IMG/VR virus record: IMGVR_UViG_3300045973_001492
Coordinates: 1 to 48,071 of that record
From: a virus
Length of the DNA stretch: 48,071 nucleotides
Strand: one strand, 5' to 3'
The translations under genes and the position numbers were made by a program. Of this stretch, positions 38,474 to 48,071 are shown piece by piece. Within the stretch, counting starts at the first letter, position 1, and the number at the start of each line of letters is the position of its first letter. A model generated the notes under the pieces. It was not told the origin of the DNA, ran no database searches, and saw only the letters and a program-made list of their open reading frames with translations.

Positions 38474-38575
38474 ATGAGCAACTTCCACCACAATCGACTC
38501 CTCGATCCTAACTGGTGGTATCTTTGCCTCATAGTCACGGCAATAATTCTAATCGCATCCTACTTTTTCAAGTAG
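38474..38575 (+). CDS. 33-residue membrane peptide
   Basis: The ATG overlaps the lipoprotein stop by one base (TAAATG). The product is MSNFHHNRLLDPNWWYLCLI followed by VTAIILIASYFFK: an amphipathic N-terminus with two Trp and one hydrophobic span. A terminator stem forms over its last codons. The coupling to the lipoprotein suggests a two-part membrane unit. Too short for a confident call, but the coding design is clear. Confidence 0.5.
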   Translation: MSNFHHNRLLDPNWWYLCLIVTAIILIASYFFK

Positions 38576-38585
38576 GATTTTTTTT
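38557..38585 (+). terminator. Terminator overlapping the 33-residue gene
   Basis: ATCCTACTT (38557-38565) pairs perfectly with AAGTAGGAT (38570-38578), loop TTTC, followed by T's to 38585. The stop codon TAG is in the right arm. Confidence 0.85.
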
Positions 38586-38606
38586 GTTCTCAAAATAAAT
38601 AATTCG

Positions 38607-38760
38607 TAAGTTTACACCGCTAAAATACCCATAAGGGAACTCCTTTAACAACTTTTCAAAAAGTTACGATAAGCGATTCCCTCGTAATGATGTCCCTCGG
38701 AAACAAAGGGAAATCTATCCTTATGGGTATTTTAGCACATCTAACACGAGGGTTTCGTGT
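38607..38760 (+). ncRNA. Structured RNA locus with 18-bp closing stem
   Basis: GCTAAAATACCCATAAGG (38619-38636) is the perfect reverse complement of CCTTATGGGTATTTTAGC (38719-38736). The 82-nt interior can form further helices: AACTTT/AAAGTT, ACGA/TCGT and TCCCT/AGGGA. A second hairpin, ACACGA-GGGTT-TCGTGT, follows at 38744-38760. TAAGTTTA at 38607-38614 is a near -7 element (TAnnTTTG) just before the stem, so transcription may begin near its first base. It starts after a terminator and precedes the 38778 gene, so it may be a leader RNA, a regulatory RNA or a processed phage RNA. Its family is not recognised. Confidence 0.65.
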
Positions 38761-38777
38761 ATATATACTTTTCGATT

Positions 38778-38954
38778 ATGCTAAAAGAAAATAGAATTAA
38801 TTACAGAAATAAAATAGATTTTATTACCATTCATCAAGAAACCATCGACGCAGGTTCTCTCTGGAACTTAATCGGAGATAAACTCATTCTCGTTGACGAC
38901 GATAATTATGTAGAAACATCATTAGATTTATCCATTTTTGAACAATCAGAATAA
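38778..38954 (+). CDS. Unknown 58-residue protein downstream of structured RNA
   Basis: An acidic protein, MLKENRINYRNKIDFITIHQ then ETIDAGSLWNLIGDKLILVD, ending SLDLSIFEQSE. The ATG at 38778 is preferred; an in-frame GTG at 38757 is inside the second hairpin of the upstream RNA. It is the only gene between the RNA and the strong terminator at 38985, so if the RNA is a riboswitch or attenuator this is its only target. Function unknown. Confidence 0.45.
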   Translation: MLKENRINYRNKIDFITIHQETIDAGSLWNLIGDKLILVDDDNYVETSLDLSIFEQSE

Positions 38955-38984
38955 TCAGCTTATAAATTGATTTACACCACCAAG

Positions 38985-39007
38985 CCCCGTAATTACGGGG
39001 TTTTTTT
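38985..39007 (+). terminator. Strong terminator before tail module
   Basis: CCCCGT (38985-38990) pairs with ACGGGG (38995-39000) around AATT, followed by seven T's. The TGTCACAGC motif begins 2 nt later at 39009. Confidence 0.9.
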
Positions 39008-46897: not shown

Positions 46898-46926
46898 AAA
46901 AAAGCCACTAATTAAGTGGCTTTTTT
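46898..46926. terminator. Bidirectional terminator between tail operon and integrase
   Basis: AAAAAAGCCACT (46898-46909) pairs with AGTGGCTTTTTT (46915-46926) with a 5-nt loop and T-tracts on both strands. It ends the rightward tail operon and the leftward integrase gene, whose stop codon lies inside it. Confidence 0.9.
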
Positions 46927-48071
46927 GTTAAAATATCATCTAGGTTATTGATCTGTTCATTCGATATACTTTCCACAATATGAACATAATCCATCGTTTC
47001 CCTTATTTGGCTGTGTCCAAGAAGTTTCTGTAGGATTTCAACTCTTCCGCCACAAATCAAGAAGTTAGTGGCAAAAGAATGTCGAGCCACGTGAAAGGTA
47101 ATTCTCTTAGTAATACCGCAAGATTTAGCAATAGTTTTTAATTCTCTATTAATATGCTGTTCAGTATATTCACCATAAAATAATTGGTTGGTTCCAATGA
47201 ATTTCAAAGCTGAATTAGACAACTGAATTCGTTGCAACTTTCCTGTTTTTACAGAAAAAAACATTAAAATATTAGTAATAATATTATCAGGTCCAATAGC
47301 TTTTATATCCGAAATTCGTAGTCCTGTAAAGCAGGAAAACAAAAACCGCGCTAATATATTTTTAAGAGTTGGATTTATAAATTCAGATGAATAATATTCG
47401 TATAATTTGAAAATCTCATCAGGAGTTAGAAAAGTTCTATTGCTTATCGCCCTTTTAGTTTTGATTTCCTTATAATTCAGTGGTGTAATAATTCCTAAAT
47501 CATTGGCAATGTGTAAATATTTTTTGAAGTTTTTTGCCAAAGTTTGAATTGTATGTGGCTCATTTTTCTCCTTAGTTTTAAAATGATAAAGCATAGCGTC
47601 AAAAAATACTGGTGTAATTTCATAAAACAATATAGACGATTTATATTTTTTCACTTTATTAAGCGAACTCGTTTGCTGTTTCACAGTTGCCGAATCTTTC
47701 AAAAGCACTTGGTTTTTCATTTCCAATTCCCAAAATTTTATAAAATCAATTCTCGAAGTTGGATTTTCATATTCATGAAGTAGTTTAGTCATATCCAAAA
47801 CCTCTCCGGATAACCTATAACTAAGCTCAATTTTATGAATATCAGAAAAAGTTTTTTCGATTATCATATTATAATCCCGACTGAATGGATGTTTCATTTT
47901 CACGCGTTGTTTCAACTTATCAAAATCATTTGGACAAACCGCTACATTTATTGGCATTTTCTTTTTTTCCTTATTCAAAAACATTTGAAGATATAAAGCA
48001 CAAGTTCCATCTGCGCGAACGTAATCATCTTTGATCACTATTTTCGCTGTTAACTTCCCACTAAAATTCAT
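46908..48071 (-). CDS. int: Tyrosine site-specific integrase
   Basis: A 387-residue recombinase of the Bacteroidetes type. The N-terminal 90 residues are an arm-binding domain (FSGKLTAKIVIKDDYVRADG), about 100-200 the SAM-like core-binding domain, and the rest the catalytic domain. Catalytic residues read as Arg252 (CFTGLRISDI), Lys275 (SVKTGK), His327 and Arg330 (HVARHSFATN), His353 (LLGHSQ) and Tyr362 (MDYVHIVE): a full set. It should integrate and, with an excisionase, excise the phage. The start codon is the last base triplet of the window, so its promoter and attP are not visible. Confidence 0.9.
   Translation of the reverse strand: MNFSGKLTAKIVIKDDYVRADGTCALYLQMFLNKEKKKMPINVAVCPNDFDKLKQRVKMKHPFSRDYNMIIEKTFSDIHKIELSYRLSGEVLDMTKLLHEYENPTSRIDFIKFWELEMKNQVLLKDSATVKQQTSSLNKVKKYKSSILFYEITPVFFDAMLYHFKTKEKNEPHTIQTLAKNFKKYLHIANDLGIITPLNYKEIKTKRAISNRTFLTPDEIFKLYEYYSSEFINPTLKNILARFLFSCFTGLRISDIKAIGPDNIITNILMFFSVKTGKLQRIQLSNSALKFIGTNQLFYGEYTEQHINRELKTIAKSCGITKRITFHVARHSFATNFLICGGRVEILQKLLGHSQIRETMDYVHIVESISNEQINNLDDILTKKPLN

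Follow-up and report, generated by a model that had tools for sequence, protein, structure and literature searches.

The closest described systems are the C4 antisense RNAs of phages P1 and P7 (RF01695), c4-a1b1 (RF03163) and c4-2 (RF02944), which Rfam places in one common clan (CL00128). The description of c4-2 is attributed to Weinberg (2017). In the P1 record, a1 lies at 48255, b1 at 48269, C4 at 48343-48419, a2 at 48423, b2 at 48452 and icd at 48470, followed by ant. The same record gave a sub-threshold match to isrK over the a1b1 leader of C4 (48230-48311; 35.1 bits, cutoff 50). RNase P processes P1 C4 by a cut on the 5' side of its core (PMC5320573). The C4-like sRNAs of Acinetobacter baumannii are chromosomal multi-copy relatives of the phage antisense RNA, with variable targeting loops (PMC5320573).

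We compared these systems with a locus in a Flavobacterium phage. The window is the whole stretch of DNA that was analysed, 48,071 nt of IMG/VR record IMGVR_UViG_3300045973_001492, and the phage is probably temperate, since the window carries an integrase gene (46908-48071). In the tail region, with the tape measure gene downstream, lies an element that we consider, with fairly high confidence, to be a C4-type antisense leader RNA. As in P1, P7 and c4-a1b1, the locus runs from a promoter through an upstream target copy and an antisense core to a second target copy where the next gene begins, and the guide is complementary to both target copies, as in P1. P1 has an operon of a small gene and an antirepressor, and antirepressor domains occur behind the RNA in some relatives here. 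However, P1 and P7 C4 have separate a' and b' loops where the window has one continuous guide, and the present unit sits among the tail genes of a Flavobacterium phage. The A. baumannii sRNAs resemble the Flavobacterium RNAs in their chromosomal multi-copy occurrence, but they belong to another core family, and the Flavobacterium copies each keep their own target gene.

A scan of the window at Rfam gathering thresholds gave no match, and the RF01695 model gave none in the window up to E = 10. In a permissive search, c4-2 matched the core at E = 3.1e-6 with a score below its cutoff (Table 1). Homologous elements in phage 6H, L022 and L039 scored 49.4, 48.5 and 41.3 bits, respectively, all above the cutoff. 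A preliminary description of this DNA had called the structure unassigned; this match and the phage 6H homologue take that label away, and the window's element, being below the cutoff, is filed as a divergent variant and not as a plain member. It has the c4-2 hallmarks, with the outer stem, the inner stem, the GAAA-loop hairpin and a guide followed by CUAA. In contrast to the canonical guide hairpin (CGC loop GCG UAGGA), the window has a single uninterrupted guide. It pairs over 18 bp with the 5' end and overlaps the start codon and first codons, whereas the canonical one targets the leader before the start. Covariance model R1, which has the window among its 34 source sequences, matched 38669-38762 with 98.9 bits.

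Table 1. Features of the RNA and its transcription unit in the window
Feature	Position	Strand	Remark
Intrinsic terminator	38557..38578	+	Closes upstream gene; T tail after it
Possible -33 element TTTG	38583..38586	+	20 nt 5' of -7 box; read from sequence
-7 box TAAGTTTA, TAnnTTTG type	38607..38614	+	Spacing kept in relatives
5' arm, predicted RNA 5' end, a1b1-like	38619..38636	+	Complement of guide
Hairpin AACTT...AAGTT	38650..38665	+	Between 5' arm and core; sequence largely conserved
c4-2-type core	38678..38755	+	RF02944 match, 35.5 bits, cutoff 41
Outer stem, 5' strand CCCUCGU	38679..38685	+	
Inner stem, 5' strand GAUG	38689..38692	+	
GAAA-loop hairpin	38694..38710	+	Within core
Guide (3' arm)	38719..38736	+	Last 7-8 nt, UUUUAGC(A), also pair with start codon region
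Inner stem, 3' strand CAUC	38738..38741	+	Then conserved UAA
Outer stem, 3' strand ACGAGGG	38746..38752	+	
58-codon ORF	38778..38954	+	MLKEN plus C-terminal part of phrog_38077
Start-codon target UGCUAAAA, a2b2-like	38779..38786	+	Second partner of guide
Intrinsic terminator	38982..39003	+	Closes unit before tape measure gene

The two perfect 18-nt complements, 38619-38636 and 38719-38736, stand 82 nt apart and form the longest perfect inverted repeat in the window. The longest repeat in simulated sequences (n = 60, base-step frequencies of the window, loop up to about 300) was 16, and the observed repeat is real and above chance level. The RNA strand at 38600-38770 folded 5.2 SD better than its shuffles. 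The preliminary description had reported this repeat correctly, and it had read it as a closing stem around a complex interior. However, the conserved outer stem crosses the 18-bp stem, which makes the structure a pseudoknot or a switch and not a closed multiloop, and a self-contained fold closed by the repeat was thereby ruled out. The 3' arm is instead a guide with two partners, its own 5' end and the downstream start codon. Three further helices had been proposed inside the repeat, and the hairpin at 38694-38710 covaries while the others were without covariation support. A second hairpin proposed downstream overlaps in sequence with the 3' strand of the outer stem (38679-38685 paired with 38746-38752).

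The RNA lies, as described before, in a gap between a terminator and a 58-codon gene, and the RNA and the ORF are together enclosed by two terminators (38557-38578 and 38982-39003). The TTTG at 38583-38586 may be a -33 element, judged by the consensus. The near-TAnnTTTG element that had been pointed out upstream, TAAGTTTA at 38607-38614, has a conserved spacing: the box stands exactly 4 nt before the 5' arm in 32 of 34 relatives and 5 nt before it in the other 2. Given that the TAnnTTTG box of F. psychrophilum lies at -12 to -5 (PMC9723704), the predicted +1 falls on 38619, where the 5' arm begins, and this arm would therefore be the 5' end of the RNA.

Relatives were collected by Blast, pattern scans, tape-measure relatives and genome scans, giving 35 distinct elements in Flavobacterium phages and Flavobacterium genome contigs. 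The phage elements lie upstream of the tape measure region, and several genome copies adjoin ordinary genes, for example a transporter gene. Pattern matches in Bradyrhizobium, a Nomurabacteria MAG and an Oscillospiraceae MAG looked like chance and were rejected. For the comparison, the guide was taken as the 11 nt preceding the 3' strand of the inner stem. Its site near the RNA 5' end, picked as the maximum over about 90 positions, was complementary at 10 or 11 of 11 positions in all elements except L041, in which the search was led astray by an inserted run of A. The start site was not maximised, the AUG being fixed by the motif upstream, and here the guide paired 7/7 with the G of AUG and the next six nt in 34 of 35 elements. 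When starts were shuffled among elements (20,000 times), 7/7 pairing occurred in 8 on average and 18 at maximum.

The 5' end, guide and start region co-varied at three variable positions with 0 violations among 34 aligned relatives (alignment A1, not fitted to structure). The three-way combinations were CGC (17), ATA (15) and TAT (2) at the first position, CGC (17), ATA (10) and TAT (7) at the second, and ATA (28) and TAT (6) at the third. Pair counts for guide pairing in these relatives were 99.6% and 99.7%, and the covariation scores of.329 and.321 compared with.114 and.117 for shuffles (0/500) and fell below.07 when slid. The start region tolerated wobble G-U changes. Core stems unrelated to the arms covaried as well, with the variable pair of the inner stem being AU in 18, GC in 12 and UA in 4 relatives, and one pair of the hairpin at 38694-38710 being CG in 16 and GC in 16. 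Compensatory change in related phages, on which the preliminary description had made its reading depend, is thus strong, and its idea of a structured leader RNA in flavophages holds, as the RNA is conserved, has its own promoter and adjoins tail genes. We rejected a pairing between the conserved AUAAGCGA and the start-side UUUUCGAUUAUG, which has one G.A mismatch by eye; it is unsupported because the start side is altered in the group of L011, L046, L048 and L049 to UUUUCAGAUAUG (UUUUCAGACAUG in L011) with AUAAGCGA unchanged.

Shuffle controls leave relatedness in, and for this reason we built a tree from the core after leaving out guide and targets. On this tree the five guide types required at least 14 changes; the tree is weakly supported, and the per-type counts were similar in bootstrap trees.

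An independent set came from a covariance model of the cores, which was run on Flavobacterium genomes (28 of 150 matched) and class-wide, where the 2 matching genomes among 295 had both appeared in the genus run. The parsed matches with a start codon that were absent from the first set numbered 24. In this second set the guide paired 7/7 with the start in 19 and at 6 or more positions in 23 (shuffled mean 4.8, maximum 12), and the 5' arm matched at least 10/11 in 22. It also contained changes beyond the first three positions, as in L126 with guide TGTTTGC and start AUGCAAACA. Two more records, L050 and L128, had a further guide type, GUCCAAA. About eight guide types were seen in all, several of them common to phage and chromosomal copies. 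One locus (L112, 1093-1594) had tandem elements about 400 bp apart, the second without a clear 5' arm or start codon.

Matches to c4-2 itself occurred in 9 of 296 Bacteroidota genomes, with 8 above the cutoff and most of them multi-copy. Across 26 canonical chromosomal loci, the complement run of the guide loop averaged 7.0 nt in the upstream leader (shuffled 4.8) and 7.0 nt just before the start codon (shuffled 4.0). Canonical copies therefore share the upstream and start-codon targets of the window, and the layout extends to the c4-2 family at large in these genomes. The canonical c4-2 RNAs (L059-L098) are present in several copies per Flavobacterium genome, each preceding a 77-aa gene (MSTxTLSKETE...). 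Other chromosomal copies (L018, L019, L026, L027, L033, L035, L037, L040 and L041) lie ahead of a 91-aa gene that, in many Flavobacterium species, has a conserved transporter gene as its neighbour; these copies look domesticated.

The genes downstream of the RNA vary widely among relatives. In the window, the 58-codon ORF reads as a chimera in which an RNA-dictated MLKEN is joined to the C-terminal part of phrog_38077, the full-length form of which is a separate gene ahead of the tape measure in related phages; the tape measure gene follows the ORF. In phage 6H (L010, 4118-4219), the ORF from the start codon of the RNA has 34 codons outside the tape measure frame, and the annotated tail gene starts inside it, perhaps through a sequence error or a recent deletion. 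The RNA also stands before small non-tail genes in bacterial chromosomes. Antirepressor-type domains were found behind the RNA in three relatives and none in the window: a Bro-N protein directly behind it in L126 (88.8 bits, cutoff 25.6), KilA-N as the third gene in L015 and L117, and P22_AR_N as the fourth in L015 (78.4 bits). The small proteins gave nothing above cutoff in Pfam, NCBIfam or PADLOC, and the window ORF and a 103-aa phage protein matched only PHROGs of unknown function. A model of a 97-aa protein (A2) showed four helices at pLDDT 76 and had no fold or PDB match, and profiles showed no relation between the 77-aa and 91-aa proteins.

The duplex of the guide with its own 5' end was computed at -30.4 kcal/mol (18 bp), against -7.9 kcal/mol (8 bp) for the guide with the start region. 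A full-length transcript, predicted to be initiated at 38619 by the RNA's own promoter, would thus keep its guide bound to the 5' end, and as a rule the start codon would stay free in cis until the 5' end is lost. Where the 5' end is removed or absent, possibly by RNase P-type processing in analogy with P1 C4, the core would have its guide free. The free guide could then bind the beginning of the ORF at 38778, that is, its start codon and first codons, blocking initiation on the same mRNA or on other mRNA copies. Judged from the sequences, antisense repression of the downstream gene's translation is the most likely function, and it may serve immunity or set when the downstream gene is active. 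Points that weigh against this reading are the sub-cutoff RF02944 score in the window, the weakness of the start pairing beside that of the 5' end, a window ORF that is a chimeric fragment with no antirepressor gene after it, and guide diversity within genomes at chance level.

A leader switch of the attenuator or riboswitch kind that acts purely in cis is conceivable and has a modest chance of being right; a signal, ribosome or protein would alternate the guide pairings, and no separate antisense RNA would be released. RNA and target are always on one transcript, guide and start change jointly in each copy, and the own promoter and terminators make a unit of leader plus gene. Guide diversity within genomes also lends trans action no support, as the canonical set (30 guides, 10 genomes) had no duplicates, yet this was not above chance (P = 0.33). 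However, the 5'-end pairing is so much stronger than that at the start that a switch working by simple equilibrium would not leave its one state. The diverse downstream genes show no ligand-like association, and the layout matches that of P1 C4, a released trans-acting RNA (PMC5320573).

We regard it as rather unlikely that the RNA serves superinfection immunity or defence, with phage and chromosomal copies silencing the matching genes of incoming phages and guide types acting as immunity types. The sharing of several of the roughly eight guide types between phage and chromosome would fit this, as would the at least 14 switches of guide type, the chromosomal copies adjoining ordinary genes and the antirepressor-type genes in some operons. 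The start targets, however, are merely 7-8 nt, the regulated gene is variable and of unknown function in most phages, and there was no PADLOC match. A DNA-level element is very improbable, whether a small inverted-repeat transposon, a cruciform or a recombination site, with the triple copies arising by gene-cassette exchange at the start codon. Although AUGnnnAAAGAAAA is kept while the following gene changes, fused or truncated genes included, the window's genome holds a single copy and no second one, where a MITE would be multi-copy. The core stems that covary apart from the arms, the fixed promoter spacing and the wobble G-U tolerated at the start, as in RNA pairing, also argue against it.

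For the antisense leader RNA, the comparisons indicate that Flavobacterium c4-2 RNAs behave in evolution like C4-type antisense RNAs. The guide is short and its type switches readily, so specificity can be tested by a three-base swap. The c4-2 Rfam family gains a concrete, testable mechanism in which the 5' end is a self-target and the start codon the second target. There is a slim chance that the c4-2 RNAs form an antisense family with few interchangeable guide types, in which phage and domesticated chromosomal copies act mutually in trans. If true, there would be RNA-based immunity types between Flavobacterium phages and their hosts, each copy orthogonal to the others. The results suggest that control of an antirepressor-type operon by antisense RNA, as P1 has it, may extend to Bacteroidota phages, and that units of this antisense-RNA kind may also be present in host chromosomes.
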